From positions 1 through 53,960 of IMG/VR virus record IMGVR_UViG_3300017963_000064: a DNA stretch of 53,960 nucleotides; one strand, written 5' to 3'. Positions 9,868 through 53,960 of the stretch are shown here, in pieces. A model generated the notes under the pieces. The model had not been told where the DNA came from. It made no database searches and was given only the letters and a program-made list of their open reading frames with translations. Positions within the stretch are counted from its first letter, which is position 1, and each line of letters starts with the position of its first letter. Source of the stretch: a virus. The position numbers and the translations under genes were made by a program.

Positions 9868-10084
9868 CTGACGCCTCCTTGTCCGTATCCGCCTTGTCTG
9901 CCAGGGCGAGCTCCACCTGGGCCTTGGCGTAGGCCTCGCGCGCCCTTATCTCCAATTCCCGCCGAACCGCAGCGCACGCATCCGCGCCCATGTCCGGCGT
10001 GACGCCCTCGCTGAGGACAAACTGTATACTTGGCGGCTGGCCCGCCTCCCCGGTGATGATGTGTATACTGATGATGTGCGTCAA
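9854..10084 (-). CDS. Small hypothetical protein behind the fibre gene
   Basis: This 76-residue protein starts at a TTG that overlaps the fibre gene's stop (TTGA) and sits behind GGAGGGAG. The N-terminal 20 residues look like one beta strand and turn, and the rest is helical, Ala- and Glu-rich. The size and position just after the fibre gene could fit a fibre-assembly chaperone, but no family is recognised. Confidence 0.6.
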   Translation of the reverse strand: MTHIISIHIITGEAGQPPSIQFVLSEGVTPDMGADACAAVRRELEIRAREAYAKAQVELALADKADTDKEASDGAD

Positions 10085-13000
10085 TTCGCTCCCTCCGTTA
10101 GCTGGCCCAGGGCCAGGCCAGGTCCTAGATAACGTTCGATTGCCGCCAGGCGCGCGCCCGTTTGTCGCGCGCTTCCAACCAAGAGCATGGTCAGTTTGGT
10201 CCAGTTGACCATGGCGTGTCCCGCCTGGCCATCATAGGTCGCAATTCCCAGGCCCTCCAATTGCGCCCGGTGCTCGTCCGCGAACTTACCAAAGGAGCTT
10301 TCCAGCAGGCCCAGTAGCCCCACATCGTCATGTGCGTCGAACGTGGTCCACTCCACGTCACTGTGGGCGCTGCCCTCTGCGTCAAAAATATAACGCACAG
10401 ATCCGTGGCTCTCAATAGATACAATGTTGGCGTCCGAGTTGGCCGCAGTTACGCCGCCGCCGCTTTCTATTCCGCCGATAAGACGTATTATACCATATCC
10501 CCCTCCTGATGTCTTGGTCGTGTTGGCGTTCTCGTCAAGGTAGCCGCCCAACTCTAGCGCGCCGTATGGCGTTGAGGTGCTAGAGTTCTCGCGCCACCCA
10601 CGCACACGCAAGCCACCGCGCGTGGAACTGGCCCTCTGAAAATGTCCAAACGTGTCATTGTCGGCCAAGGTCGTAAAGCCATGGTTGACGCCTGTTCCCT
10701 GCAGGGCAAGGATAATGTCCGTCTCGCTGCCTTGGTGAATAGTCAGGCCCTTGCCTTGCTTGGTACTCGCGGCCGACGTGTTTATAGCCACCTGGCCCGC
10801 CTCTAGAACGCGGAACAGGGGCGTGGTTACGCCCCCTGACGTGCTAACGTTATTGATGATGGAAAAATGGCCTGAGCTGCTGCCGCTATCTGGATCTATG
10901 AACACCCACACGTTATCGCCCGCCAAGCCAAGCTGGGAGGTTGCCTTGAAATCTGGCCCAGTCGAGTCAACATCCCCATGGGTAAAAACTTCCAGGGAGG
11001 TCCCGCCGCCCGCGGCCTTGATGGTCAACTTGGCCGCTGTGAACTCGTATTGGTCGTTCCCCGCGACCGAAAAGATGGCCGTGTCCTCCGTTGCGTACAG
11101 AGTTGTGTCCCCGTCCGGGTCGAGCACGAGGGCGTTCCCGTCCAGGTCAAGGTTTGCGTCGTCAACGCGTATGTTGTCCGGACTAGGCGTAGAGTCGAAC
11201 ACAAAACGCCCGCCGTTGTAGGCCAGCCCGACCCATCCGTCATCCGCGAATTTGATCGAATTATCACTCGCGGTGCTGGCGCCGCCGATGCCCAGCCGCA
11301 TCACGCGCACCTGCCCATTGGAATCCGTAGCCAGCAAGGACGCCGCGCTCCCCGGGTTGGAACTGCTCGTGACCGTGTGGGTGTGACTGGTCGCTGTAAC
11401 GCCATTGGAAGAGGTCACGGACAAGGTTCCCGGCGTGCCAAGGAACAAGGTGTAGGCGCCATTTGCCCCGCCGTCTGTATCGTCCAACCCGTTGCCCGCC
11501 GTGAAAAGCCGCTCGGCTGACAGGTCGCCGTCATAGGCCAGCGTCAAGTATTGCGCGTCGGATGGCGCCCCACTTGCGGCCACGCTGATAGCGTGTGTAT
11601 GGTCACTTCTAGCGAATGTGGAGGCTGTTCCCTCTGTGTTTGTGGAAGATTCTGTCAGGGTGCCCGTGGGCGCCGCACACGTGATGGCATGCGCGTGGTC
11701 GCGTCGAGCGGCCACGCTGGCAGAACCTGCCGCGCCCGCCTGGTCCGGCGTCAAGGTGTCCGGCGCCGTAGCATCAAAAACCGCTATGGTCGCATCCGTT
11801 CTTACATACGTAGAGGCCGAGCCTGCCGCGTTGGCCGTGCTCAAGGTCAGGCCAGGCGTCCCGCCCAGGGCTGGCAGGTCCGCAGCCTGGATACTCTGGA
11901 ATGCGGCAGAGGTCGCGCCCGTAGCCCGTAAGACTTGGCCAGACGTCAGGCCGCTCGTCGTGTGGTCCGCGCCCAGGCCCGCCGTCGTGGCCAAGACGTG
12001 GCTTTGATTGTGGTGCAGGTCCGCGCCCAGGCCCGAGGGGTGATTGTGAACGTGGTCACTGCGGACCATGCTGTCCGCGCTGCCCTCCGCATTGGCTGTC
12101 CCGATATTGCTGGGCGCCACCGTTTCAAACCCGTGTTGATGGTCCTCGCGGGCAGCATACCTGGACACGCCCGCCGTGCTGGTATCGTCCGGCTCAATGT
12201 CTGTATGCTCGGAGCCGTCTCCAAATATTGGCCCGCGCCCACTCGTGCTACCCGCTGGCCCGCCGCCCGAGAATGACCCATCCGTTAGTCGATGGTCCCC
12301 TAGCTCGATCCGGCATGCGACGGCTGGATTTGTTCCGTCGCTTAGAGCCCATAGCTCCGCCCGGTTGACAAACAAGTCCTCATAGCCAGATGTAAACTCG
12401 CTATGCTTGAGCCGCACACCTGGCGCGTGAAACGGGTTTTCCCTATTGGTAACAAGCGTGTAGCTGGTCATGGGGTTCTGCCAGGCCGTGATAGCCTGGC
12501 CCAGGGCGGTCAGCGCCGCGGAAGAGGTCACGGTTTCATCCCACACGATGGCCTGGTAGGTGCCATACACTGGCCCATACCACCCTTCCACGCCGTCCCC
12601 GACAATGTATACCCGGTCCACGCGCCTTGTGTTGTCCTCTATGTACTCGAGTTCTGCATACGGAGACGCCGAGTACAAGAGATGGTCTGTCGGGTCGTCT
12701 GAGAGGTCCAGCCCGGTCCAGCTTGGGGCGGAGAGGTCCGCGGGAGCCTCAAAGTAGTGGAATTGCTTATAGGCGTCAATGTAGAAGTAGGCGCCCGCAG
12801 CCTGGGCGGCGATGGCCTCCATAGCCTGGCGGAATGTCCCTTGTAGAAAGATTTCTTCCAGAGACGCTTGGATCGTGTCAATCTGGCCCACCGTGACGCC
12901 CAGGGGCACCAGATACGTATTGACTAGGGCTGTAACTTCTGTGCTGTCCGTATCGCCGGCGTCCACTGTGTAGTCCGGGACCACGATTCGATCCAGGAGG

Positions 13001-26757: not shown

Positions 26758-29019
26758 CTATTGTGGTATCCACCACTCGGCGCACCGGCAATTAATGTTT
26801 TCCTTTGCGTCGCTGCCGGTCCGAGGCGAAACCATCCGGTCATCTCCTACCTGAAATAGGGCGTCCAGCGCGATGGGCTGGTCCATGTAGCGATCATGGG
26901 CGTTTCGGTGACTGGTACGCGTCCTTTCGTCCAGGGCGGCAAGCCAGCCCTTGAGCAAGTCCAGCCCGGACTGAATGGCGCCCTGATGGCGCCCCAGGGA
27001 CCGCGCCTTGCCCATCTCGGTTCTAGCAATCCGCTCGCGCTGCCATAGCTCGGTCCGCAGCCCGAATACATCGTTGGTCCGCTTCCCCAGTTCCTCTTGA
27101 ATCTTGAACGATCCCCACCCGTTTTCCGCGGCCTCGGTGAGCAATTTCCGCAGGGCCACGTCAAGCATCTCCAAGGTCGTCCCGTTGATGTCCTCCGCGA
27201 ACTTGAGCTTCATCGTCTGGATGGCTTGGGAGATGTGCGGGCGGCTCAAGTCGAAAAGAATGTCGCTGCCCAGGGTAGCCAGGGCGTCCGCACCTGCCGC
27301 CCGCGTCATGTCCGTGAATAGTGGCTCATAGGCTGTCTCAAAGAACGTCACCCAGGCCGCCAGGTCGAAAAACTGGGACGCGGTATCTGGTATCCTTGGC
27401 TCTTGCTGGGTCGCCTTTGTGGGCGCCATATACTCGGCCAGGGCATCCGCGATGTCATCCCGTTGCTTGCCAAAGTCAGTGGCTAGACGCTTGGCCATCC
27501 TCCGCTCGAATGGCATGCTAACGGCCTGGATGGCTTTCCAGAGGGCCTTGTGGCGTGGGCTTCCATAGGCTGGGACCCCGGCCTTTACGGTCGCCGGCAG
27601 CCTGGCCACCTGGGCGGCCTGGCCCACGCGGAGAACCTCGGCCGCGATTCGCGCCACCTGGGCGGCCTGGCCCACGCTGAGCAGGTCGTTTCCTCGCTCT
27701 CCTGGCGGCTCTGTGGGAATTTGAGTTCCGCCCGCGCTCCCAAAATCCGCCACTTGGCGCTCAGCGGCAGCCACCACAGGCACCATCCCCACGGGTACAA
27801 AGCCAGTGTCCCCGCCTGGGACCTCTCCAAACCCTAGGCCCATTCGCTCGTCCACTGTGTTCCAGGGGACGCCCATCGCCCAGTATATCCGGGCGGCCTC
27901 CGCCTTCGTAGAAATGTCCTCCTGCAGAGCGGTTACCTGGCCCAGGTCAGTGGCCACCCGTTCCCCCGGCGCCAACATTGGCCGCCTCCGCCGAAAGAAG
28001 GATGTCAAGCCCGTGTCCCTAGCGCCGACAAAGGGAAGGAGCGTCAAGCGCCAGAACCACCGATGGGCCTGGTCCATGTTCTCGTACGTATTGGCCTCCC
28101 CCCATCCCATAATCTCAGGGGGGACGCCGAACACACCGGCCACCTCTACTCTGCTGGTTTTGCGCTGTTCCAGCCATTGGATGTCCACGGGCGCCCAGGA
28201 GAATGTCTTGATGTCCGTCACGCCGTTTTCCAAGATGATGGGCTTGTGGGCGTTTTCTATTCCGCTGTAGTTGTCTGCCAGCGTCTGTAAATACTCCTGA
28301 CGCTCCGTCTCGGTAAGGCCCTCCGGGGCAACCAGGCCGTAGTCTGGCCGCGCGCCGCTCCGCAAGAAATTGCGTGACCATGCCTGGGCGTACATGTCGA
28401 TGATGATGCCGTGACGTGCTGCCGTCACAGGCGCCAGGCCGCGCCAAGGGTTTCGAGGATTGTAAAACTTGTCATGAATGATTGAACTGGCGGGAAGCTC
28501 CCGCTCCCCATAGACGTATCCGGCCACTATGGGGTAATCCGGTGTTGTCTCATCAGGCACCACGTCCACTAGGTCGGGGCGTCTGTTCCACAACTCCACA
28601 GGCCGCCCGCGCGCGTCATCGACTATCTCCAGGAACACTTCGCCGCCCAAGAGCTTTTGAACACAATAGGCCTCCCACAGGTCAATCGGCGTGTGGTCCG
28701 GGTTGACGCTGTCCAGCAACTCGGTGACTGGGTGAGCCAAAAGGGCCATCCCGTCCGCGTCCACTACGCGGACCGGCAAGGGCGCGATGGCTTCCGCATA
28801 CTTGAGTACAGCCTTCCTTATCCAGGCGTAGATCTCGTACACCTTGGCATAGCTGTCAAAGTCGCCCGCCACCTGCTGCTCAAAGGTCAGCCCGCCGCCA
28901 GAACTGTAGACGTGTTCGCGCCCGGTCAACTCAGGATGATGGCTGATGGCCTTGGCGGGCTGGCCACCTGCCCGCCAGGCCGCCAAGGCCGCCCGTGCAC
29001 GGTCTGCGATTGTCGTCAT
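26758..29019 (-). CDS. Portal protein fused to a MuF-like minor head domain
   Basis: The 753-residue product starts at an ATG overlapping the terminase stop (ATGA). Residues 1-420 have the HK97/SPP1-type portal plan: the helical wing (AKVYEIYAWIRKAVLKYAE), the stem region VEVAGVFGVPPEIMGWGEANTYENMDQA, and a crown-type tail. Residues about 490-753 form a MuF (SPP1 gp7/Mu gpF) domain: RIARTEMGKARSLGRHQGAI, then the C-terminal zinc-like motif ending NINCRCAEWW. Portal and MuF are usually separate neighbours, so this looks like a natural fusion. The portal forms the DNA entry ring and the MuF part is an injected or head-completion protein. Confidence 0.9.
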   Translation of the reverse strand: MTTIADRARAALAAWRAGGQPAKAISHHPELTGREHVYSSGGGLTFEQQVAGDFDSYAKVYEIYAWIRKAVLKYAEAIAPLPVRVVDADGMALLAHPVTELLDSVNPDHTPIDLWEAYCVQKLLGGEVFLEIVDDARGRPVELWNRRPDLVDVVPDETTPDYPIVAGYVYGERELPASSIIHDKFYNPRNPWRGLAPVTAARHGIIIDMYAQAWSRNFLRSGARPDYGLVAPEGLTETERQEYLQTLADNYSGIENAHKPIILENGVTDIKTFSWAPVDIQWLEQRKTSRVEVAGVFGVPPEIMGWGEANTYENMDQAHRWFWRLTLLPFVGARDTGLTSFFRRRRPMLAPGERVATDLGQVTALQEDISTKAEAARIYWAMGVPWNTVDERMGLGFGEVPGGDTGFVPVGMVPVVAAAERQVADFGSAGGTQIPTEPPGERGNDLLSVGQAAQVARIAAEVLRVGQAAQVARLPATVKAGVPAYGSPRHKALWKAIQAVSMPFERRMAKRLATDFGKQRDDIADALAEYMAPTKATQQEPRIPDTASQFFDLAAWVTFFETAYEPLFTDMTRAAGADALATLGSDILFDLSRPHISQAIQTMKLKFAEDINGTTLEMLDVALRKLLTEAAENGWGSFKIQEELGKRTNDVFGLRTELWQRERIARTEMGKARSLGRHQGAIQSGLDLLKGWLAALDERTRTSHRNAHDRYMDQPIALDALFQVGDDRMVSPRTGSDAKENINCRCAEWWIPQ

Positions 29020-30428
29020 GCTCCCGCCCTTCCTCTGAGCCATACCCAATTCTCTACCGCTTGAGCAGCGTGGTCGTTTCCGTCCGCTGGCTCATCCACA
29101 AACCCGTCGCGCGTCTCCCGGTTTTTGTAGCCCGTTTGGAGCTCGTCCAGCAGATTCTTGCACCGCCGATGTACTAGCAGGGTCCGCCTCCGCTGGCCAT
29201 CCAAGATCAAGGCCCTTGTTTCTCGGATGGCCGCCGCGCGCGTTGAGCCACCTCCGCCCGCCTTCCTAGCCATCCAGTTGCGCGCGGGAATGTCCGCCTG
29301 GCGGAACCGTTTACGCAGCGCTGCCGCTTCGTGGGCCACCGCTGCCATTTCGGGCAGCCTCACGCTACGTTCACGTAGCCACCTGGCCAGGTCTGTGTTC
29401 TTGTCCACGTCATCCGGGAACGGGTCCTTTTTCCCCCGGGTCCGCGCCCGCGGATCAATGGCTGCCCACGGGCTGTAGTTGTAACACTTGGCCAACACGC
29501 CCCTTACCGTTTCCTCTTCCAGCTTGTAGCTTTCGTAGATCTCGTCAAAGACAACGACGTGGGCGCCCTGCTTCTGGATGAACACGACCGCGCGCGGGTC
29601 CACGTAGCCATCATCAACGCCCAGTTCAAAAGGCCGCTCCGGATCATAGTCAATGGTCGTCACGTTGCCGCTCCCGAATGTGGCGTAGACCAAGCCATCC
29701 ACGCCCACGTACCAGTCCCCATCCACCCAGGCCTGCCGCAGGGCCTTGGGTAACGTGTTGAGCATAGCCCAGTAGCCTGCGTCAAGGTATGGATTGTCCG
29801 CGGGCAGGGCGGCCACATAGACAAAGTCATCCTCGCATCCGGCCAGATTCTCCGGCAGATCCCGCTCGATCCAATACCGCCGTACCCACTTGAAGTAGCG
29901 CCCGTTTGGGTTTGTGGCCGCGGCAAAGAATGGGTCCGTGACACCTGGCCACCTCAAGCTGCCGCGGAGAATGTCGAACACGCTCTCTGGATCCTTGGTC
30001 AGTTCGTCTATGGCCAGGCCCGCGAACTCCACAGACTGGTACTTAGTTGGGTCGTCCAGGTTTCTCAGCAGGATGCCGCCACCGCCGTAGCACTCGTGTA
30101 GATAGAAACCCAGGCCGTCTGTGCGCGTCGACCGGAGCCGCCCAAGCCAGGGCGGAAACTCGGCCATCTTTGAGATCTGCCGGTCTGTCAAGCTCGGGTA
30201 GTCCTCGCAGAACAGGCCCACCCGGACGCCGCGGTGCCCTGTGCCCGCCCATTGCAACAAACGCCGTATCAGATACCACCGTAGCCAGTAGCTCTTCCCA
30301 GGCCCACGGCTGCCGCCGTACAAGGTGTAGAGGTGGGTGTCCGCTGCCTCGCAGGCCGCCATCTGTTTTTTGGTGAATTGGCAAAGGTCTGAAAAGGCCA
30401 CCTCTGGCTGAGCCGCCCGGACTACCAC
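29016..30428 (-). CDS. Terminase large subunit (TerL)
   Basis: This packages DNA into the prohead. With the GTG at 30428 the protein has 470 residues. The Walker A motif is GGSRGPGKS at about 38-46, and the Walker B is LAIDE within SVEFAGLAIDELTK. A coupling-type motif (FFAAATNPNG) follows, and the C-terminal half carries a RuvC-type nuclease domain (ELGVDDGYVDPRAVVFI, then VVFDEIYES and AIDPRA). The GTG follows GGAGGGTGGGC; a start at 30566 is possible but has no good ribosome site and adds a low-complexity Trp/Gly/Arg-rich end. The 174 bases before 30428 hold no other gene. Strongest family match in this region. Confidence 0.92.
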   Translation of the reverse strand: MVVRAAQPEVAFSDLCQFTKKQMAACEAADTHLYTLYGGSRGPGKSYWLRWYLIRRLLQWAGTGHRGVRVGLFCEDYPSLTDRQISKMAEFPPWLGRLRSTRTDGLGFYLHECYGGGGILLRNLDDPTKYQSVEFAGLAIDELTKDPESVFDILRGSLRWPGVTDPFFAAATNPNGRYFKWVRRYWIERDLPENLAGCEDDFVYVAALPADNPYLDAGYWAMLNTLPKALRQAWVDGDWYVGVDGLVYATFGSGNVTTIDYDPERPFELGVDDGYVDPRAVVFIQKQGAHVVVFDEIYESYKLEEETVRGVLAKCYNYSPWAAIDPRARTRGKKDPFPDDVDKNTDLARWLRERSVRLPEMAAVAHEAAALRKRFRQADIPARNWMARKAGGGGSTRAAAIRETRALILDGQRRRTLLVHRRCKNLLDELQTGYKNRETRDGFVDEPADGNDHAAQAVENWVWLRGRAGA

Positions 30429-30602
30429 GCCCACCCTCCAGACAAGGCCCGCGCCTTCGTGGCTGGCAGGGCCACGTCGCAGGCCGCCCAGGCCGCCCTC
30501 GCCAGGCCAAGGTCGGGACGCCAAGAGCACACGGGTTGAGTGCTGGCCCTTGGCCCACCAAGCCACCTGGTCCCACAGATGCCGCCCACCTCCATCGCCA
30601 TA

Positions 30603-30986
30603 CTACACGTCCATCCTTATGAGCACACCGGCCACCTGGCCCGCGCCCTCCCTATCGTAGAGGCCCAGCAAGCGCGCCTCGTCTTGCAGGACCTCCAACT
30701 TGAACGCTTCATCTTGCGATGCTCTCCGCAGGGCGCGACGCGCGCCGATGGCGTCCGCTAGTGCCGACGCCTCTATTTCCTTTGATAGCTCTTGCTTCCT
30801 GGCCAGGGCTTTTTTTATGTAGTTTCGCGCCTGTCGCTCCCCGATGTCCCACAACTCGGAAATCCTGGGAACTATGGCCGACGAGTCCCAGCCCTCATAC
30901 ATCATAACCAAGACCATATGCACCCGGCGTTCTACGGTCAGTGGGCTGGCCCGCGTCTGTTTTTTGTCGCCTGATACCTTGGCCAC
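30603..30986 (-). CDS. Terminase small subunit (TerS)
   Basis: The 127-residue product contains a helix-turn-helix (DIGERQARNYIKKALARKQ, about 47-65), followed by long helices, which is the plan of small terminase subunits. It binds the packaging initiation site and lies directly before TerL, after the GT gene. The GTG start at 30986 is behind a weak ribosome site. The small size and composition fit well; a pac or cos site was not identified. Confidence 0.75.
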   Translation of the reverse strand: MAKVSGDKKQTRASPLTVERRVHMVLVMMYEGWDSSAIVPRISELWDIGERQARNYIKKALARKQELSKEIEASALADAIGARRALRRASQDEAFKLEVLQDEARLLGLYDREGAGQVAGVLIRMDV

Positions 30987-30989
30987 CGC

Positions 30990-31751
30990 TCAGCCCTTCT
31001 TCTTGGCCCTTGCCAGCATCGCCCGATAGTCCGGCAGTTTTAGGACGACCTCGTTTTCGCCGCGCGTGGGGTGAGGCTTGATCCAGTTTGGGTAACGCTC
31101 TCTCAGGATGGCGATGGCCTGGGCCTCCGTAGCATCGTCCCGGTAAGCTACACATCCGCCCGCGTTACTATAGTGGATGGCGTCACACCACACGTTATTG
31201 AACCGCAGGGCCAGGCCGCAGGCTTTCCACACCTTGACCGTGAAGTCGTAGTCCTCCTTGAGGGGGAGCGTCTCGTCATAGCGCACCGGGCAGCCCTTGC
31301 GGTATCCGGAGAACGTCCCGATCAAGAACAGGTTTGTGGCGGTAGGCCTGCGAGGATTGTAGTAGAATGCGTTTGTGGTAGGCGCGCCGGAAAAGGCCCA
31401 TCCGCGCGCCCGATCCAAGGCGTCAAATAGCTGGCCCAGGCGCTCTTGTCGCATCTCTGGCGTATCCCACACGACCTTGTCCTTGTTGTTTTTCGTGGTG
31501 AAATGGCCCAGGGCGCGAACGTCATCATCAAGCATCAGGACGTTATGGTCCCCCACAAACGTGTCCAAGACAGTGTTCCGCGCGTTAGAGACACCGCGTC
31601 CACTTTGGGGGATGGCCGTGCAGCCCGCCGCCTCGTAGTCAGCGACCTGCTCCGGGGGGACCACGACCGGCGCATCAGGGAACAAGCCCAAGGTCAGGCC
31701 GCGTATAGCCTCCGCGCGCCCGCTTGAAATCACGCAAACAAGATACTCCAC
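30990..31751 (-). CDS. GT-A-fold glycosyltransferase, TAGT-like (GT1)
   Basis: Starting at GTG 31751 behind a strong AAGGAGGTG, the 253-residue protein shows a nucleotide-sugar-binding fold: SSGRAEAIRGLTLGLF after strand 1, then LMLDDDVRAL with Asp75-77, the metal-binding DxD motif. A later acidic pair in KEDYDFTVKVW marks the acceptor/base region. The design resembles the TET-associated glycosyltransferase family, known in phages and in the base J enzyme. It is the last of the cassette and directly precedes TerS. Substrate unknown: either a DNA base or a virion protein. Confidence 0.78.
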   Translation of the reverse strand: MEYLVCVISSGRAEAIRGLTLGLFPDAPVVVPPEQVADYEAAGCTAIPQSGRGVSNARNTVLDTFVGDHNVLMLDDDVRALGHFTTKNNKDKVVWDTPEMRQERLGQLFDALDRARGWAFSGAPTTNAFYYNPRRPTATNLFLIGTFSGYRKGCPVRYDETLPLKEDYDFTVKVWKACGLALRFNNVWCDAIHYSNAGGCVAYRDDATEAQAIAILRERYPNWIKPHPTRGENEVVLKLPDYRAMLARAKKKG

Positions 31752-31752
31752 G

Positions 31753-32664
31753 TTACACCTCCTTGGCCGCCAGGCCGCAGGTAGCCAAGGCCAATGCGTC
31801 CGGCGTAGACGCCCTGGGCAGCAGGCCGTTTCTGGTCGTTTTGACATCGCAGACGTCGCAGGGCGCCAAGCTGGCCCTTTTCCCCACGCGCAAGAACGCC
31901 CGCGCATGGCTGTAGCAGGCCGAACGCCAGATGGTCGCCAGGGCGCCGTCGTCCGGGAAACGCCCTATGATAGCCTGCTCCCGCCAGTCGTTGCAACACA
32001 AGGGGACAAGGCCGTCATAGAAAATGGACAGTTCCCTGAACGGATGTGCACAGGGGCTGTCTAGTGGGGCGGCCAATGGTCCGCTGCCCTTGACCGCATT
32101 TCCGGCGTGATTGGTCAGCCGCCTCGTTTGGGCCAGCCCGCCCGCGCTGCCCTCCCCTATGGAGGGCATATAGACAATGTGGCGGCCCGTGTGGTATAGC
32201 CAAGGGCTGAAATCGCCTGGGTAGTCGTGTTCTTCTGCGGGCAGATTGAGCGCGCGTACCTGTTCCCGGATGGGCCGATAGAGCTCCACTAAAAGCGTGG
32301 TAAGCCCAGCCTTGAACAGGGCCACGCCGAGGTCCCTTGTCAGCAGCAGCCCATTTGTGGCCACCATCAGAGACGCCCGTGGTATGAAATAGCGGAAGGT
32401 GCGAATGAGGCCCGGAAGGTCTGAATGCATCAGTGGTTCGCCGCGGATCTGTAAGTCAATGCGTGGATGCGACCGCATCCCGCGAATGTGCAGGGCGATG
32501 GCCTTGGCCAGGGGCAGCGACATTTCGCCCACGACCGTGTTCCGCGGCCACCCAGTCGCGTGAATGCCGCAGAAGGAACACCACAGGTTACAGCCTGCTA
32601 CGCTTTCAACCTTGAAATAGTTGGGCCATCCTTGTGCGGGCGGCTCCCAGCCTGACACGTTCAT
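31753..32664 (-). CDS. Radical SAM enzyme with SPASM-like C-terminal cluster domain (rSAM1)
   Basis: The 303-residue protein carries the radical SAM iron-sulfur motif C-x3-C-x2-C as Cys25, Cys29 and Cys32 (GCNLWCSFC). Middle segments (LQIRGEPLMHSDL) hold the G-x-G/E-P SAM-contact region. The C-terminal third has a SPASM-type arrangement: PCAHPF, GLVPLCCNDWRE, then CDVCD near residue 280. SPASM enzymes modify peptides, proteins or sugars, and some modify nucleotides. Its ATG overlaps the stop of GT2; a GTG six bases later (32658) has better spacing behind AGGAGG. It lies between two glycosyltransferase genes, which points to a joint pathway. Confidence 0.85.
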   Translation of the reverse strand: MNVSGWEPPAQGWPNYFKVESVAGCNLWCSFCGIHATGWPRNTVVGEMSLPLAKAIALHIRGMRSHPRIDLQIRGEPLMHSDLPGLIRTFRYFIPRASLMVATNGLLLTRDLGVALFKAGLTTLLVELYRPIREQVRALNLPAEEHDYPGDFSPWLYHTGRHIVYMPSIGEGSAGGLAQTRRLTNHAGNAVKGSGPLAAPLDSPCAHPFRELSIFYDGLVPLCCNDWREQAIIGRFPDDGALATIWRSACYSHARAFLRVGKRASLAPCDVCDVKTTRNGLLPRASTPDALALATCGLAAKEV

Positions 32665-33437
32665 TCCTCCTTTTGTCCAAACTTGGCCAAGTGGGCGTCA
32701 ATGGCGTCGTAGCGAATGCGGGACCATCCAATCACCTGGCCCGGTTTCAGTGGCAAAAACTCAAGAAAGCGAGACATGCGCGCTGCCGCGGCCTTCCCAC
32801 ACCTGTTCGCGTTCTCTGTGCTATAGACATCGCTGCACCCGCCCTCTAGCTCCCCGGACACGGCTTGTGTGGTTATGCCGTAGGCATTGACCTTGACGGT
32901 CCGCCAAAACGCCTCCACGTGGGCCAGCCAGAAAACAAGGTCCTCCGCAAGGAACAGGCCCGGGTCATAGTCAATGCCTGTGGTCGTATTGATTAGTACA
33001 CACCTGGCCCCAAACCTGTTCCAGTCCCATGCTTTCCTGGCGCCCCAGGCATACTCTCGCGTATTGTAGCCCACCATCCCCACGCGCGCGTAGGCGTCCA
33101 TGATACCCTCCCCGTAAGCCAGGGCATCCACGGCGAAACAGTCCCTGGCACGTCGGTTCTCCACGCGGCAAAACCGCGTCAGGTCGTCGTCGAGCTGCCA
33201 GTGGGCCTTTACGCCCAGGCGCCGAGCGTGTTCTAGGCACGCTTGACGCGCGCGCTGTACGCCGCGGTCGCGCACCGGGTCCAAGGCCAGAATGTCCGCG
33301 TGTGGGAAGGCGCCCTTGTACGCGTCGGCCTCCGGCGCTTCCACCGCCAAGATGGGCTGCAGGCCACCCAGCAGGTTCGGAGTCGTGGCCAGGCCCGCGC
33401 GCCCTTTCGACGGTATGTACACCGGGTATTTTAGCAT
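32661..33437 (-). CDS. GT-A-fold glycosyltransferase, TAGT-like (GT2)
   Basis: The 258-residue protein starts with YPVYIPSKGRA, the typical N-terminus of TAGT-like glycosyltransferases, followed by the DxD motif HWQLDDDLTRF (Asp83-85). FLAEDLVFWLAHVEAF provides a second acidic pair. It is clearly paralogous to GT3 next door: the two share YIPSKGR, ADILALD, QLDDDLT, GIDYDP and YSTENA and align over the whole length, so they arose by tandem duplication. The ATG follows GAGGGAGGG and the upstream stop by a few bases. Likely transfers a sugar to a modified base or to protein; acceptor unknown. Confidence 0.82.
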   Translation of the reverse strand: MLKYPVYIPSKGRAGLATTPNLLGGLQPILAVEAPEADAYKGAFPHADILALDPVRDRGVQRARQACLEHARRLGVKAHWQLDDDLTRFCRVENRRARDCFAVDALAYGEGIMDAYARVGMVGYNTREYAWGARKAWDWNRFGARCVLINTTTGIDYDPGLFLAEDLVFWLAHVEAFWRTVKVNAYGITTQAVSGELEGGCSDVYSTENANRCGKAAAARMSRFLEFLPLKPGQVIGWSRIRYDAIDAHLAKFGQKEE

Positions 33438-34232
33438 CTACGCGCCCTCCCTCTCTAGCCTGGCCGAGGTGCTGCCCAGCCTGGCCAAGTGAGCGTCAAC
33501 GGCGTCGTAGCGCACACGGGACCACCCAATGCATTCCCCTGGGCGCAAAGGCTTGAACTCCACAAATCGGGCGTAGCGCCTGGCTACCATCTTCCCGTAT
33601 CGAGTCGCGTTCTCTGTAGAATACATCTTCTGGTAGCCGCCCTCGTGTGCGCTGGCCATCGGCCTGGCGGCCACCGCGTAAGCGTTGACCTTGATAGAAC
33701 GCCAAAACGCCTCCACGTGGGCCAGCCAAAAGGCCAGGTCCTCGGCCAGGTAGATGTCCGGGTCGTAGTCGATGCCTGTGGATGTGCTGGCCAGGATGCA
33801 CATCACCGGGTATCTGTTCCACTCATACGCTTTACTTGCAGACCAAGCGAACTGGCGCACAGCAAACCCCACGATCCCCACGCGCGGGAGGGCGTCCATC
33901 AGGGTTTCCGCGTAGGCCAGGGCCTCCGCAGCAGGGCACCGCGTACACTTTCCGGCCGCGACGCGATACAGCCCGGTCAGGTCGTCGTCAAGTTGCCACA
34001 AGGCGCCCACGCCCAGGCCTCGGGCGTGGGCAAGGGCGGCCTGGCGTGCGTATTGCGCCCCACGGTCGCACGTGTCCAGCGCGAGGATGTCTGCACCCGG
34101 GAAGGACTCACGGTATGCGCCCAGGTCTGTCGGCTCAACTACCAAGGTGTATGGCAGGTCGCCCAGCAGCCTGGGCGTAGAGGCCGTAGTCGCCCGCCCT
34201 TTTGACGGTATGTAGATCGGGTACCTGGTCAT
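33438..34232 (-). CDS. GT-A-fold glycosyltransferase, TAGT-like (GT3)
   Basis: The 264-residue paralogue of GT2 begins with YPIYIPSKGRA and carries LWQLDDDLTGL with Asp82-84. It shares FLAEDL-type acid pairs and YSTENATRYG with GT2. Its start directly follows the rSAM2 stop, and its stop precedes GT2 by one base, so the genes form a translationally coupled chain. Two retained paralogues suggest that they add successive sugars or act on different acceptors. Confidence 0.82.
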   Translation of the reverse strand: MTRYPIYIPSKGRATTASTPRLLGDLPYTLVVEPTDLGAYRESFPGADILALDTCDRGAQYARQAALAHARGLGVGALWQLDDDLTGLYRVAAGKCTRCPAAEALAYAETLMDALPRVGIVGFAVRQFAWSASKAYEWNRYPVMCILASTSTGIDYDPDIYLAEDLAFWLAHVEAFWRSIKVNAYAVAARPMASAHEGGYQKMYSTENATRYGKMVARRYARFVEFKPLRPGECIGWSRVRYDAVDAHLARLGSTSARLEREGA

Positions 34233-35504
34233 CTATGCCGCCTCTCCATTGTACACATAGACCACGTCGCCCGCCGCGTCCAGGTCCTCGGCCGGCAACA
34301 AGACGCCGCCGAAATACTTGTAAGGCCCACGTGGCCCGTTGACGTGGTTCCACAGGTAGTGCAGCCAGTCGAACATGCTCCAACTGTGGAACTGCCCACG
34401 CTTTTCGCTGGACGTCTGATTGAATCCGGTCGCAGTGGTAAACGGGATGCCGCGCGCGTACTCCAAGGCTGGCGCGATGTCTGACCACATCACCCGCCCG
34501 CGCTCCTTGGCAATGAGCAGGGCTTGGGTGAATTGGCCACGAGAGTAGTTCCAGGACTCCCGCAGGCCGCAGCAGGACGCGCCCACGCACATCTCCTTGA
34601 AGTGGGCGTCACTGACATAGAACCGCAGGCCCAAGCGTTCGCATTCCGCTTGCATCGACCGCATAAAGGGCGCCTTCATCCCTCGGGATCCTCGCAGGTA
34701 GCCGCTCTGGCCTGGACTGTGTAGCTGATATTGCTCAATCAAAGGGTAGCCAGCCAGCTTGCCGATTCTCCTGTAGCGCGCCTTGGCGCCCGGTGTGCGT
34801 AGCTCCACGCACAAAAACTCAGTGCTGACAGCCTCCGCGCCCGCGTCCGCAGCCTGGCGAATGAGCTCCAGGTAGCTGGGCGTGGAAACGCCCAAGATGA
34901 ATGGGCGGAGCCGCAGCGTAATGCCGCCAATGCCCCACCTGGCCATCCGCTCTATAGCCTTGAGACGCAGGGCTGGCCCAGGGACGCCGCGCTCTATCTT
35001 GGCGGCCTTGGCCTTGTCTGTGGTGATAATGGACATCTTGACGTGGAAGTGGTCGGCGCCTTTGAACTGCTCTACATACCGCGCGTCCTCCGTCCACCAT
35101 GTGCCCTTGGTGCTGAACGAGATAGGGTAACGCAGCTCCCTAAAGAACTCGATCAATTCAAGGCCCACTCCATAGCGATGCTCCAGGGGACAGAACGGGT
35201 CAGCCATGCCGCCCCATTGGACAGCCAAACGCTGGCGTGTGAAGGCGCCAAACTGGGGATACTCTGGATCTGTGAAAACGCGCTTGACCTTGTTCACATC
35301 GACTACGCCCACGCCCCTGGACAAGTACCGAGCCTTTGTGTTCCCAATGGCTTTTCTGAAATAGGCAAAACAGTATTGGCAATCGTATCCGCACCGGCTG
35401 TACTGGTCCAGCGTCAAAGGCATAGAGCAGTCCGTGATTTCCTGGCTCCACCGCGGACTCTCGTAGGCTGGCAGGTCGTCAGCCGCCCTATAGTGGGCTG
35501 TCAT
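34233..35504 (-). CDS. Radical SAM enzyme, SPL/photolyase-like type (rSAM2)
   Basis: With the ATG at 35504 the protein has 423 residues; it starts inside the end of the ParB-like gene by 17 bases, and a longer frame would be Arg-rich and unlikely. The radical SAM cluster is Cys38, Cys42 and Cys45 in RCGYDCQYCFAY, with preceding TDCSMPLTLDQY. WGGMADPFCPLEHRY gives the second SAM-binding loop. This C-x3-C-x2-C-F-A-Y form is typical of enzymes related to spore photoproduct lyase, which act on DNA thymine dimers. A link to DNA-base chemistry is thus plausible, but the family also covers other substrates. C-terminal 90 residues carry extra conserved aromatic residues. Confidence 0.82.
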   Translation of the reverse strand: MTAHYRAADDLPAYESPRWSQEITDCSMPLTLDQYSRCGYDCQYCFAYFRKAIGNTKARYLSRGVGVVDVNKVKRVFTDPEYPQFGAFTRQRLAVQWGGMADPFCPLEHRYGVGLELIEFFRELRYPISFSTKGTWWTEDARYVEQFKGADHFHVKMSIITTDKAKAAKIERGVPGPALRLKAIERMARWGIGGITLRLRPFILGVSTPSYLELIRQAADAGAEAVSTEFLCVELRTPGAKARYRRIGKLAGYPLIEQYQLHSPGQSGYLRGSRGMKAPFMRSMQAECERLGLRFYVSDAHFKEMCVGASCCGLRESWNYSRGQFTQALLIAKERGRVMWSDIAPALEYARGIPFTTATGFNQTSSEKRGQFHSWSMFDWLHYLWNHVNGPRGPYKYFGGVLLPAEDLDAAGDVVYVYNGEAA

Positions 35505-36261
35505 CTGCCAGCCTGGGCGCGACCTGGGCGTCCACGTCGCTCTCGGTCTCCTGGTCCTCTTCAGTCGCCAGCGTGGTATCCCTGAAGTGGAAGCGAACAC
35601 GGCCAGATTTCCACTCAAGCCCGAGGTGCATCGCCAGGCGCTCAAGCTGGCCCTCGCTGGCGCATTGGACAATGAGCCTGTGGTCCTTGGCTGGCTCTTC
35701 CCAACCCGCCAGGTCGGGGATCTCTTCCCCCACAAACGTCTCATCAGAGAGGAATCTCAGGGTGTCCAACGTGTCGCCGTCAATAGACACGGGGAGCTGG
35801 TCGGCCTGGGCCAGGGCGTCAAGGAACGTCACGTAGTCTGCACTATACATGCGTGTGTAGTCGAACGCGGTCAAGTCCCCGCCCGCCAAGGTCAGGTTGT
35901 TGTGGTCCAGGCTGTACGCCTTGGCCGCCGCCTCGCTCTCCGCGTCGACGCCGAACAACACCGGGACCGCCCAGTCTCCATCCTCCGCCAGGGCGATGCC
36001 ACGCGGGACGTCGCGCCCCTGCTTTTGCATCCAGCGTAGCGCCTGGGTCCGCCCGTTTCCCTCCACTACGCCACCGCTGCCGCCGTTCAAGGTCGGCTCG
36101 AACTTGGGCGGGTCCTTGAATCCGTAACGCCCTATGGAGTCAATCAGGGCGCCAAGGTCATGCAGCTTGGGGTTATCGTCCAGGAGAAGTAACTGCGCCA
36201 GTGGGATGTACTCGATCCGGAGAATGCCATCTTGGCTCTGAGGTACGGTAGAATCGGACAT
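35488..36261 (-). CDS. ParB/Srx-like domain protein
   Basis: The first 130 residues of this 257-residue protein follow the ParB N-terminal (ParB/sulfiredoxin-fold) plan: IPLAQLLLLDDNPKLHDLGALIDSIGRYGF, then VVEGNGRTQALRWMQ, which matches the G-x-x-R phosphate-binding loop. The rest is acidic and not recognised. ParB-fold proteins bind or hydrolyse nucleotides or cut DNA. Genes of this type often occur in phage modification and packaging regions. It begins next to the exported-protein gene (TGA then ATG) and ends inside rSAM2. It may recognise or prime DNA for the cassette. Confidence 0.8.
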   Translation of the reverse strand: MSDSTVPQSQDGILRIEYIPLAQLLLLDDNPKLHDLGALIDSIGRYGFKDPPKFEPTLNGGSGGVVEGNGRTQALRWMQKQGRDVPRGIALAEDGDWAVPVLFGVDAESEAAAKAYSLDHNNLTLAGGDLTAFDYTRMYSADYVTFLDALAQADQLPVSIDGDTLDTLRFLSDETFVGEEIPDLAGWEEPAKDHRLIVQCASEGQLERLAMHLGLEWKSGRVRFHFRDTTLATEEDQETESDVDAQVAPRLADDSPL

Positions 36262-40156: not shown

Positions 40157-40996
40157 GTGAAAATCAAACTTTCAGCCAAGGCCCAAGCCTCCCTTGATTC
40201 GGTCGTCGAACGGCTCAAGTCCGGCGACCTCTCACCCGTGACCAGAATCGCCCGCATAACCCGGCACCCGGACGACGACTGCCCAATGGCGCATTGGTCG
40301 TTCAATAACGTCGTTTTGGCCTACTTGCAGACAGGTAGCTTGGACTGCCGCGGTTACCGCCAATGGCAGGAAGTTGGTCGCCAGGTCAAGAAGGGCAGCT
40401 CTGCCGCGTTCATCTTTGCGCCCATCAACGTCTACAAGAAGGGCGCCGATGGAAAACCCCTAGTTGAGGACGGCCACAAGGTTGTAGCCTTTACGCGGTT
40501 CCGCACGATCCCCGTTTTCCCGGTGGAGTCGACCGAGGGCGAACCGCTGCCCGACTTCAACTATGCGCCCACCAAGCTGCCTCCGCTGGTTGACGTGGCC
40601 ACCCACATGGGCGTGAAAGCAACGTGGACGCCTCTCCCTCCTGACCGCCTGGCCGACTACAGCCCGACCAAAGACGCCATTCGGGTGGGCACCCACGGCG
40701 CCGCCGAGTTTTTCCACGAACTGGCCCACGCGGTTCACGCGCGCGTTTTGAAGGCCAGGGGCGAGACGATCAAAGGAGGCCAGCAAGAAGAGCAAGAAAC
40801 CGTAGCCGAGTTTACGGCCAGCGTCCTGATGGACCTCTACAACATTGGCGACACGACCGGCAATAGCTGGGCGTACATCCAAAAATACGCCAAGGATCCC
40901 ATTGAAGCAGTGATGGCCAGCCTCAAGGACGTTGAGGCGATTCTGGCCGCCATTGAGCAGGCTCAAGCCGAGATGGGGCTGGCCCAGGCCGCATAA
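40157..40996 (+). CDS. ArdC-like antirestriction protein (ssDNA-binding domain plus metallopeptidase)
   Basis: The 279-residue protein has the two-part design of ArdC. The N-terminal domain (about 30-130) carries WSFNNVVLAYLQTGSLDCRGYRQWQEVGRQVKKG, the ArdC-type single-strand DNA-binding pattern. The C-terminal domain carries the zinc protease motif HELAH (His187-Glu188-x-x-His191) with a later Glu in QETVAEFTASVL. ArdC proteins protect incoming plasmid or phage DNA from host restriction. The GTG lies eight bases after AAGGAG. Its place directly after P2 fits expression soon after infection. Confidence 0.88.
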   Translation: MKIKLSAKAQASLDSVVERLKSGDLSPVTRIARITRHPDDDCPMAHWSFNNVVLAYLQTGSLDCRGYRQWQEVGRQVKKGSSAAFIFAPINVYKKGADGKPLVEDGHKVVAFTRFRTIPVFPVESTEGEPLPDFNYAPTKLPPLVDVATHMGVKATWTPLPPDRLADYSPTKDAIRVGTHGAAEFFHELAHAVHARVLKARGETIKGGQQEEQETVAEFTASVLMDLYNIGDTTGNSWAYIQKYAKDPIEAVMASLKDVEAILAAIEQAQAEMGLAQAA

Positions 40997-47706: not shown

Positions 47707-48222
47707 ATGGTTCGCAATCCGTACACTCCGCAGGACGATAGCACGATTCGCGCCCTGGCTGGCACACGTACCGCCGCCGAGATAGGGCAACTCCTGTCCC
47801 CAAGGCGCACCGCGTCCAGCGTCTACGCCCGCGCCCACAAGCTCAGGGTCAGCCTGGATAGAAGGGCTGGCGCCTGGAGCGATCAAGAAATAGCCTTCCT
47901 GGTCCAGCAGGCCGAAAAGGGCCAGTCCGCGGAGCAAATCGCCCAAGGGCTGCCCAAGCGGACACAATCGGCCGTGATAAGCGAGGCCAAACGCCGAGGC
48001 TTGAGCTTGCGCCGCGCGCCTGTGTTCGACGCCAGGGAGCAACTATGGTTCAGGGCGCCCACGGGCAAGGAGGCCAGCTTGGCCGCCATGCTGAACGAAC
48101 TGGCCGACGCGTTCCCCCATGCAGACACCAAGGGCAGTGTTATCTATGAGGCCATCCGCTACGCCTATGAGCAGGTCGAGGCTGCGGCAGACTACCGCCA
48201 CGACAGGACCCGCTATGAATAG
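47707..48222 (+). CDS. Myb/SANT-like DNA-binding regulator
   Basis: The 171-residue protein carries two tandem helical units: YTPQDDSTIRALAGTRTAAEIGQLLSPRRTASSVYARAHKL (5-46) and GAWSDQEIAFLVQQAEKGQSAEQIAQGLPKRTQSAVISEAKRRGL (56-100). This spacing of aromatic residues and the A-E-I-x-x-L helices match Myb/SANT-type domains of phage regulators. The C-terminal region is acidic and helical. First gene after P5, so it may control the replication genes or the P1-P6 promoters. Confidence 0.75.
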   Translation: MVRNPYTPQDDSTIRALAGTRTAAEIGQLLSPRRTASSVYARAHKLRVSLDRRAGAWSDQEIAFLVQQAEKGQSAEQIAQGLPKRTQSAVISEAKRRGLSLRRAPVFDAREQLWFRAPTGKEASLAAMLNELADAFPHADTKGSVIYEAIRYAYEQVEAAADYRHDRTRYE

Positions 48223-52835: not shown

Positions 52836-53960
52836 GTGACAGAAGAAACCAAAGCCACCCGTTCCGATCCAACCGCAGCTATCCCCGCCGACACCTTGGC
52901 CGCCCTGGCCGATGGCCTGAGCTCCACCTTCTTGACCGCCATCTTGGCCGCCAAGGGCCTCGCCCAGGCGCCACCGTCCAAAGTTGACCCGGAGGCCGCC
53001 GAACACATCCGGCACTGCCTCTTGGCGCCCTTCCCCGAATATTACATTGGCTGGAAACTCCAACACACGATGGAAGATCGAAAGCAAGGGCTTGCCGTGT
53101 GCTACGTCGACGCCCGCGCGGTTCAAGACCGCCTGGACGACGTCTTTGGGGTGGAGGGCTGGACCGAGGAATACACCGCCATCAATGGCGGCCTGCTTTG
53201 CACCTTGAGAACCTTGTGGCCTGGCGGAGTTTGGGTCACCAAGCAATCTTTCGGCGCCGCAGGTGGAGGTCGCGGCCCGGACGTCAACAAGTCCAGCGAA
53301 TCGGACGCCCTGAAACGTGCTGCCGTCAAGCTGGGCGTGTTCCGCTATGGCTACCGCATCCCTGCCCAGTGGGTCCCCATCAAGAAACGCGGCAAGGGAT
53401 GGGTCATCGCCGCCAGGCCAATGCTGGAACAGGTCGCGCCCTGGGCACTCCCGAGGTCGAGCGATGGGCTGGCCACCGACGTCCCCTACTGGGAACTGGA
53501 CGAGTTCGCCGCCCACGTGTCCGCCTACAATGAGCAAAATCCGCCGCCCGAGCCGCCCGAGCCGCCCGAGCCGAAGGCCAAGACCACCGCAGGTCGAGAT
53601 CCAGCCACCTTGATCGAACAGGACAAGGGCAAGGCCAAAGACGCCGCGCCAGGTCAGCAAAGCGAGGGCGCCGCGTTTGTTCTCCGGGACAGCGACGACC
53701 ATCCGGTCCCGGCCGACTGGAACGAGTTTTACGCCCGCGCGCTCGACAATCAGGAGCTCGGACATTACAAGGCCAAGGCCCACATCTATAACGCCGTTCG
53801 CCGGTTCTACCCGGGTTTCAACGTCCGCAAGAAAGCCGACCGTCAGCCCGTAACCATCAAGCAAGCGTGGGACGTGCTCCGGTTCCGCACGCTGAGCGAT
53901 GCCCTGCAAGCCAAGGTTTTGGAGCAGGCCTCACAGACTGCCCCTGGGCGGGACTCTGGC
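52836..53960 (+). CDS. Rad52-family single-strand annealing protein (continues at 1-393)
   Basis: The protein (464 residues across the join) contains the Rad52/Rad22 core at about 55-200: WKLQHTMEDRKQGLAVCYVDARAVQDRLDDVFGVEGWTEEY, then SFGAAGGG...KSSESDALKRAAVKLGVFRYGYRIPAQWVPIKKRG. In phages this family anneals complementary single strands in recombination-dependent replication and repair. The GTG starts after AAAGGAG. A Pro-Glu repeat linker follows (about 231-245), and the C-terminal part is at bases 1-393. The last 123 bases shown here repeat the start of the window. Confidence 0.9.
   Translation, partial: MTEETKATRSDPTAAIPADTLAALADGLSSTFLTAILAAKGLAQAPPSKVDPEAAEHIRHCLLAPFPEYYIGWKLQHTMEDRKQGLAVCYVDARAVQDRLDDVFGVEGWTEEYTAINGGLLCTLRTLWPGGVWVTKQSFGAAGGGRGPDVNKSSESDALKRAAVKLGVFRYGYRIPAQWVPIKKRGKGWVIAARPMLEQVAPWALPRSSDGLATDVPYWELDEFAAHVSAYNEQNPPPEPPEPPEPKAKTTAGRDPATLIEQDKGKAKDAAPGQQSEGAAFVLRDSDDHPVPADWNEFYARALDNQELGHYKAKAHIYNAVRRFYPGFNVRKKADRQPVTIKQAWDVLRFRTLSDALQAKVLEQASQTAPGRDSG
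53838..53960. repeat. Terminal direct repeat, right copy
   Basis: Identical to bases 1-123. See the left copy. The unique circle is 53,837 bp. Confidence 0.95.

Follow-up and report, generated by a model that had tools for sequence, protein, structure and literature searches.

The window, the whole 53,960-nucleotide stretch of viral DNA analysed here, carries a six-gene cassette that we interpret, at roughly two chances in three, as a system for post-replicative hypermodification of phage DNA. The radical SAM protein rSAM2 would activate the base, TAGT-family glycosyltransferases would add sugars, and a second radical SAM protein, rSAM1, would remodel the sugar. The assignment to DNA hypermodification is strong, and the placing of rSAM2 as the base-activating enzyme is, by inference, well supported. 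The genes concerned are as follows.

35488..36261, minus strand: ParB-like protein, 257 aa, cassette gene 1 (PHROG profiles and an HMM of relatives' ParBs)
34233..35504, minus strand: rSAM2, 423 aa, spore photoproduct lyase-like radical SAM protein, proposed base activator in DNA (cysteines, profiles, AF2 fold)
33438..34232, minus strand: GT3, 264 aa, TAGT-family glycosyltransferase (PF20691 1e-22, DDD motif)
32661..33437, minus strand: GT2, 258 aa, TAGT-family glycosyltransferase, tandem paralogue of GT3 (PF20691 3.2e-21)
31753..32664, minus strand: rSAM1, 303 aa, SPASM/twitch radical SAM protein, proposed sugar-tailoring enzyme (SPASM 7.8e-7, AF2 fold)
30990..31751, minus strand: GT1, 253 aa from the GTG at 31751, TAGT-family glycosyltransferase (PF20691 2.8e-10 for the long ORF, DDD motif)
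30603..30986, minus strand: TerS, putative small terminase, 3 bp after GT1 (position directly before TerL)
29016..30566, minus strand: TerL, large terminase (phrog_2 1.4e-18, Terminase_3 5.7e-4)

As the preliminary description had it, the six genes, TerS and TerL follow in this order as one coupled chain on a single strand. There is a 17-bp overlap between ParB and rSAM2 and one of 4 bp between GT2 and rSAM1; rSAM2 runs directly into GT3, and GT3 into GT2; gaps of 1 and 3 bp separate rSAM1 from GT1 and GT1 from TerS. Translation starts at ATG 35504 for rSAM2 and, for GT1, at GTG 31751, not at the long-ORF start 31907. For TerS, Pfam and PHROG profile searches returned nothing above noise. An exact 123-bp direct repeat at the window ends indicates a complete genome assembly, so that gene absences in the window are meaningful.

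Glycosyltransferases and rSAM1

All three glycosyltransferases exceed the curated cut-off of 27.5 bits for PF20691 (TAGT), with 81.6 bits for GT3, 76.7 for GT2 and 40.9 for GT1, which bears out their suspected membership in this family; across Pfam and PHROG, the profiles matched were TAGT and beta-glucosyl-HMC-alpha-glucosyltransferase. GT2 and GT3, 58% identical, do begin with the YIPSKGR segment reported for them (YP[VI]YIPSKGR) and carry the DDD motif (metal-binding, DxD-type), which is also present in GT1. A single-sequence search for close relatives of GT2 found none.

rSAM1, noted earlier for its SPASM-type cysteines, has a SPASM domain that scores 29.7 bits against a cut-off of 21.5. 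The AF2 model of rSAM1 (pLDDT 82) has BtrN, AbmM and SpeY as its top PDB matches, with a TM of 0.81 to BtrN by target length, and from this predicted BtrN-like fold the protein looks like a sugar-tailoring enzyme. The sugar and aminocyclitol radical SAM enzymes BtrN, AbmM, SpeY and DesII are the solved folds nearest to its model, with SPASM/twitch cysteines in common; unlike them, it is phage-encoded and linked to DNA glycosyltransferases. Relatives of rSAM1 surfaced only with an alignment as query, a single-sequence search having found none, and isolated-phage records gave no match; a TAGT lies in the neighbourhood of 32 of its 70 phage relatives.

The glycosyltransferases and radical SAM enzymes might instead serve to modify a protein of the virion or the surface of the host, the alternative raised in the preliminary description. 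SPASM enzymes often have peptides as their substrates. TAGTs, for their part, are akin to GT2-family cellular glycosyltransferases (PMC13216743). We nevertheless consider protein or surface glycosylation very improbable, as it is disfavoured by the profiles that the GTs match, by the swapping of TAGTs with 5hmU-kinase and AADT modules, by the mutual exclusivity with TS-type hydroxymethylase (TS) and TET, and by the coupling to ParB, all described below.

rSAM2 and the candidate base activators

The cysteines C38, C42 and C45 reported for rSAM2 (CX3CX2C) are invariant in 63 aligned relatives, as are C26, C232, C311 and C312. Its AF2 model (pLDDT 93.4) returned spore photoproduct lyase as all of the top five PDB fold matches; the PDB sequence search gave noise only, leaving the fold search alone informative. 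Kinship with the spore photoproduct lyase family, proposed earlier for checking, is thus upheld by motif and predicted fold but not by profile scores: the long ORF reaches the Rv2578c and PA0069 radical SAM models at 2.8e-15 and 8.8e-15, with 56 and 54 bits against curated cut-offs of 430 and 360. Spore photoproduct lyase acts on thymine in DNA. It shares only about 14% identity with rSAM2, which has extra invariant cysteines and does not stand in a spore-repair context. That rSAM2 is an ordinary repair photoproduct lyase, present here by chance, would suit this closest predicted fold; we give the idea hardly any weight in view of the tight linkage of rSAM2 to tailoring modules, the TAGT-rSAM2 fusion and the mutual exclusion with TS and TET.

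rSAM2 represents a large phage family, found in more than 200 viral contigs, with one weak match only (MT835521) among isolated-phage records. Where a host or source is named, gut and rumen account for many of these phages; one is a prophage within the genome of Bacteroides fragilis S82, with the gene order ParB, kinase, rSAM2, TerS, TerL. Identity of rSAM2 with the radical SAM protein gp053 of phage M6 (M6 rSAM) was considered and rejected, with an HMM score of 3 bits and with rSAM2 and a relative of gp053 both encoded at one locus (L014).

Each of the 29 records with rSAM1 and a TAGT carries exactly one candidate base activator, namely a TS-type enzyme (21), TET (5) or rSAM2 (3). The chance of such exclusivity is 5e-7 after dereplication at 90% and 4e-5 at 60%, for a small rSAM2 class of three scored records, to which the window, L092 and L087 can be added. 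The suggested survey of relatives with and without TET revealed a toolkit that swaps, with rSAM2 replacing TS or TET in rSAM1+TAGT phages without overlap. TS (PF00303) and TET (PF12851) were absent from all 38 rSAM2 records and from the window in searches that did match, respectively, the positive control M6 and related phages, confirming that the window lacks a TET oxygenase. Many relatives are contig fragments, so absences there are soft, and, with rSAM2 phages mostly from gut and rumen, habitat could confound the absence of TS outside the rSAM1 set. The earlier idea that the radical SAM enzymes take the place of TET in C-H functionalisation is favoured for rSAM2, by exclusivity and swaps, and not for rSAM1, which looks like a sugar-tailoring enzyme.

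The reported lack of a DNA methyltransferase holds in the window for C5-cytosine methyltransferases, none of which was found. ParB matches phrog_620 (1.8e-9) and phrog_498 (DNA methyltransferase with ParB domain; 6.4e-8) and scores 33 bits with an HMM built from ParBs adjoining rSAM2 in relatives; Pfam gave no support for the assignment in the window. Within the rSAM1+TAGT set, ParB is present in 8 of 8 TET or rSAM2 records and in 0 of 21 TS records (p 2.3e-7). Its company with TET and rSAM2, never with the nucleotide-level TS, is expected if rSAM2 acts on DNA and not on nucleotides.

Tailoring modules around rSAM2

Among 100 rSAM2 loci, 64 carry at least one gene of a toolkit made up of a 5hmU-DNA-kinase-like, an amino acid:DNA-transferase-like (AADT) and a GNAT gene, 29 carry a TAGT and none carries both; TAGT and rSAM2 were scored with separate HMMs, since fused ORFs occur (the TAGT-rSAM2 fusions of L045 and L047). 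The window belongs to the TAGT class, with no kinase, AADT or GNAT found near its cassette. At least 13 toolkit switches are forced on the rSAM2 tree, and modules swap at the DNA level between ParB and rSAM2 flanks of about 84-90% identity. The relatives' kinase HMM matches M6 gp054, a PF18748 5-hmdU DNA kinase, while the AADT assignment is weak (Pfam 0.0013). GNAT is the sole tailoring gene at five loci, and some loci consist of ParB and rSAM2 alone.

Conceivably, rSAM2 acts late, as a tailoring enzyme in the manner of the M6 rSAM, which works after handle formation and adjoins the M6 kinase and AADT; an unrecognised phage or host enzyme would then supply the handle. GNATs usually acylate amines, so the GNAT-only loci hint at an amine-bearing product, and the handle might bear an amine, not a hydroxyl. 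We regard late tailoring as unlikely. At L014, rSAM2 adjoins a 41% identical relative of gp053, which suggests that the two do different jobs; loci with only ParB and rSAM2 would be odd for a late enzyme; rSAM2 stays constant while tailoring genes swap; and it is exclusive with TS and TET.

The modified base could also be cytosine or 5-methylcytosine in place of thymine. TET can take 5-methylcytosine as a substrate. In T6-type phages, the TAGT that has been characterised works on glucosylated hmC (PMC13216743). A cytosine target nonetheless seems improbable to us, given the spore photoproduct lyase-like predicted fold of rSAM2, the relationship of the relatives' kinase to the 5hmdU DNA kinase, and a window devoid of C5-methyltransferase.

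Proposed pathway and known systems

The TAGT profiles, module swaps and TS/TET exclusivity together support the original reading of the cassette as TAGT-type DNA glycosylation; its chemistry we infer, together with substrate, step order, handle, ParB role and protective function. We envision that rSAM2 would form a 5'-deoxyadenosyl radical and functionalise a pyrimidine, most likely at the thymine 5-methyl group, in finished DNA and without oxygen. The product would be a handle, most simply 5-hydroxymethyl-dU, as made by TET and TS-type hydroxymethylases in other phages. ParB would probably hold or load the enzymes on DNA, GT3, GT2 and GT1 would attach sugars in succession, and rSAM1 would then oxidise or otherwise remodel the sugar. 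Co-expression with the terminase would place the modification just ahead of packaging, plausibly for protection of the DNA from restriction. More tentatively, and with rather less than even confidence, rSAM2 may oxidise the thymine methyl group of double-stranded DNA directly and independently of O2, which would make it the anaerobic equivalent of TET/JBP and give phage DNA hypermodification of this kind a third independent starting route; in this phage, the three GTs would build a sugar chain on it that the BtrN-like rSAM1 then oxidises. We know of no radical SAM enzyme that hydroxylates thymine in DNA.

To our knowledge, the enzymes that initiate the known base hypermodifications of phages are TS-type hydroxymethylases, TET/JBP oxygenases and modifying methyltransferases. 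Our data suggest an additional initiator, a radical SAM protein distributed over more than 200 uncultivated viral contigs, many from gut and rumen, where an O2-dependent TET could hardly work. Modified DNA is predicted for many gut phages and prophages, including the one in Bacteroides fragilis. If true, this would offer a testable account of DNA protection in anaerobic phages and supply a new enzyme with which thymine in DNA could be edited.

T-even phages rely on dCMP hydroxymethylation and on GT-B enzymes for transfer of the first sugar, and no counterpart of either was recognised in the window; GT1-3 share the Pfam/PHROG family (TAGT, PF20691) of the T6-type beta-glucosyl-HMC-alpha-glucosyltransferase (PMC13216743). 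In the thymidine hypermodification of Pseudomonas phage M6 (PMC6449724), 5hmdU is probably made at the nucleotide level. Relatives of its 5hmdU DNA kinase, AADT-like gene and rSAM occur in rSAM2 relatives, whereas M6 has a TS homologue and the window has TAGTs but no TS, kinase or AADT. Rhodococcus phage Tonitrus encodes ParB, a TET-like protein, aGPT-Pplase2 and a 5-hmU DNA kinase (PMC11955845). The window resembles such TET-kinase phages and the TET/JBP-TAGT phages in that ParB adjoins a base activator and interchangeable tailoring enzymes, on DNA, and TET-type relatives with rSAM1 and TAGT were found in this survey. TET, however, needs O2 and 2-oxoglutarate, and in the window a spore photoproduct lyase-like radical SAM protein stands in its place.

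Gene content and predicted folds

The six cassette genes and the downstream terminase genes lie on the minus strand as the preliminary description had them (ParB, rSAM2, GT3, GT2, rSAM1, GT1, TerS, TerL), with cassette genes overlapping or lying only a few bases apart, much as in a single operon with coupled translation. The TAGT membership suggested for GT2 and GT3 was borne out by profile search, with GT1, GT2 and GT3 all above the Pfam cut-off; all three also carry the DDD motif and match the PHROG of beta-glucosyl-HMC-alpha-glucosyltransferases. As tandem paralogues, GT2 and GT3 share 58% identity. The ParB assignment is backed by a PHROG and by an HMM built from relatives' ParBs. Further features of the window are:

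1-123 and 53838-53960: 123-bp direct repeat, identical at both ends
31751, minus strand: GTG, the true start of GT1
40157-40996: early region, weak match to an ArdC N-terminal domain (anti-restriction type)
47707-48222: GcrA-like cell-cycle regulator domain, score at the Pfam cut-off

Because of the exact repeat, the assembly is likely to be complete and to close into a circle. The GcrA-like domain hints at an alphaproteobacterial host.

By profile, rSAM2 (423 aa) matches only general radical SAM families, plus the Rv2578c/PA0069 families well below cut-off. Its structural model is confident (pLDDT 93.4), and spore photoproduct lyase takes all of the first five places among its PDB matches (E 1.2e-8 to 5e-8), followed by Mmp10 (4e-6). 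At an identity of ~14%, this similarity is one of fold and gives a lead on the substrate, short of proof. In 63 sequences the CX3CX2C cysteines never vary, nor do C26, C232, C311 and C312, a second set that possibly ligates an auxiliary Fe-S cluster. For rSAM1 (303 aa), the anticipated SPASM domain was found by profile search; the best match of its model (pLDDT 82) is BtrN (E 1.3e-15; TM 0.81, normalised to the target's length), with AbmM and SpeY next and DesII lower in rank. All of these work on sugars or aminocyclitols. One relative with rSAM1, TAGT and rSAM2 (L148) also encodes a PIG-L deacetylase.

Exchange of tailoring modules around rSAM2

Alignment searches turned up rSAM2 relatives (44-53% identity) at 205 loci in viruses, of which 80 were kept, and at a further 18 in bacterial or archaeal genome assemblies. 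The gene order typical of the 100 non-redundant loci is [MetK]-ParB-AADT-like-P-loop kinase-GNAT-rSAM2-TerS-TerL, with a terminase-cluster gene at most four genes downstream of rSAM2 in 68 of 98. An HMM of the relatives' kinase matches gp054 of the thymidine-hypermodifying Pseudomonas phage M6 (44.5 bits), itself a PF18748 5-hmdU DNA kinase (7.7e-18), and one relative's kinase exceeds the PF18751 cut-off. The AADT-like (amino acid:DNA transferase-like) name is tentative, as the matches to PF18724 and M6 gp051 are both weak. Purified M6 5hmdU kinase is active on 5hmdU in DNA, cited as an unpublished result (PMC6449724). We found no description of the rSAM2 family in the literature searched; central papers lay outside its reach, and Iyer 2013 may note some of the neighbourhood.

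Several neighbours vary. An S-adenosylmethionine synthetase-like protein lies near rSAM2 in 35 of the 100 loci (e.g. L061:5640-6545), as if to supply SAM. At L014:6931-8271 and 9983-11272, one phage encodes a relative with 41% identity to gp053, the M6 radical SAM protein, and also an rSAM2; kinase and AADT-like genes accompany the pair. L045 (4512-5348), L047, L057 and L058 have a third radical SAM protein, shorter than the others (~280 aa), encoded upstream of ParB.

Kinase/AADT/GNAT genes occur at 64 of the 100 loci, TAGTs at 29, both at none and neither at 7, and whole-record Pfam searches confine TAGTs to TAGT-type records. The rSAM2 tree shows some 19-21 switches of the tailoring label, of which well supported branches force no fewer than 13-14, so the modules have been replaced repeatedly rather than following two old clades. 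In L077 (TAGT), L059 (AADT-kinase-GNAT) and L063 (GNAT), ParB and rSAM2 are 89-90% identical at the DNA level around unrelated inserts; L104, L105 and L099 repeat the pattern (flanks 84-96% identical). L045 and L047 fuse TAGT and rSAM2 in a single 698-aa frame. The swapping of modules around it makes rSAM2 the constant enzyme. As the kinase and glycosyltransferases of known systems require a pyrimidine already functionalised, rSAM2 is, by analogy, the natural candidate to functionalise it. Loci with ParB and rSAM2 alone fit an enzyme whose product already has a use. Five loci have GNAT as the only tailoring gene, a situation that a hydroxyl alone accounts for poorly and that would allow for a product bearing an amine.

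A HAD/APH-like protein lies beside TAGT and rSAM2 in L013 (7596-9246), L044, L069, L077 and L105; with the cytidylyltransferase that accompanies it in L013, it could perhaps serve synthesis of an activated sugar or alcohol. At L110:9243-11017, rSAM2 precedes two putative non-TAGT glycosyltransferases, judged by eye, which may form another branch of tailoring. Mutual exclusion of TAGT and kinase, as observed around rSAM2, does not hold everywhere: a TS-type phage (L141:5471-9465) carries TAGT, AADT-like and kinase genes together.

Partition of candidate base-activating enzymes and proposed pathway

Among 38 rSAM2 records, window included and many relatives' records being fragments, none contained a thymidylate synthase family member (TS, a profile that takes in pyrimidine hydroxymethylases and found the M6 positive control) or a TET oxygenase; the window's lack of TET had been suspected from sequence. 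With rSAM1 as internal control, an alignment search gave 72 viral loci, 32 with TAGT nearby. Whole-record searches of 43 found TS in 31, TET in 5, rSAM2 in 3 and none in 4, with two in no record. All 29 records with TAGT nearby contain exactly one of the three; the four with none also lack a nearby TAGT. Given these counts, the chance of this perfect partition is 5e-7, 6e-6 or 4e-5 (dereplication at 90%, 70% or 60% rSAM1 identity), values that ignore deeper relatedness, one group at 50% mixing TET and TS members. The window is an additional case, with rSAM1, three TAGTs and rSAM2 but neither TS nor TET. A sugar-tailoring role, as proposed here for rSAM1, would account for its presence beside TAGT whichever base-activating enzyme is used.

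Of these 29 records, the 8 that have TET or rSAM2 all carry ParB, and none of the 21 with TS does (p = 2.3e-7). TET acts on DNA and TS on nucleotides; in having ParB, rSAM2 groups with TET.

We envision that rSAM2 would functionalise thymine in DNA, GT1-3 would attach sugars, rSAM1 would alter a sugar and the terminase would package the modified DNA; the sequence of steps, the target base and the chemistry of the handle are all inferred. That the cassette hypermodifies DNA we put at roughly 0.9. It is reasonably likely that rSAM2 is the enzyme that activates the base, with thymine in DNA as its target, while anaerobic methyl oxidation as its exact reaction is a tentative proposal. The system would represent a phage DNA hypermodification variant whose starting enzyme belongs to a new class. 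ParB domains are also found with a DNA carboxymethyltransferase, with no role assigned there (PMC12783734). A parallel in gene content is Rhodococcus phage Tonitrus, which encodes ParB, a TET-like protein, aGPT-Pplase2 and a 5-hmU DNA kinase (PMC11955845): the same set as in the rSAM2 relatives, with TET at the place of their rSAM2.
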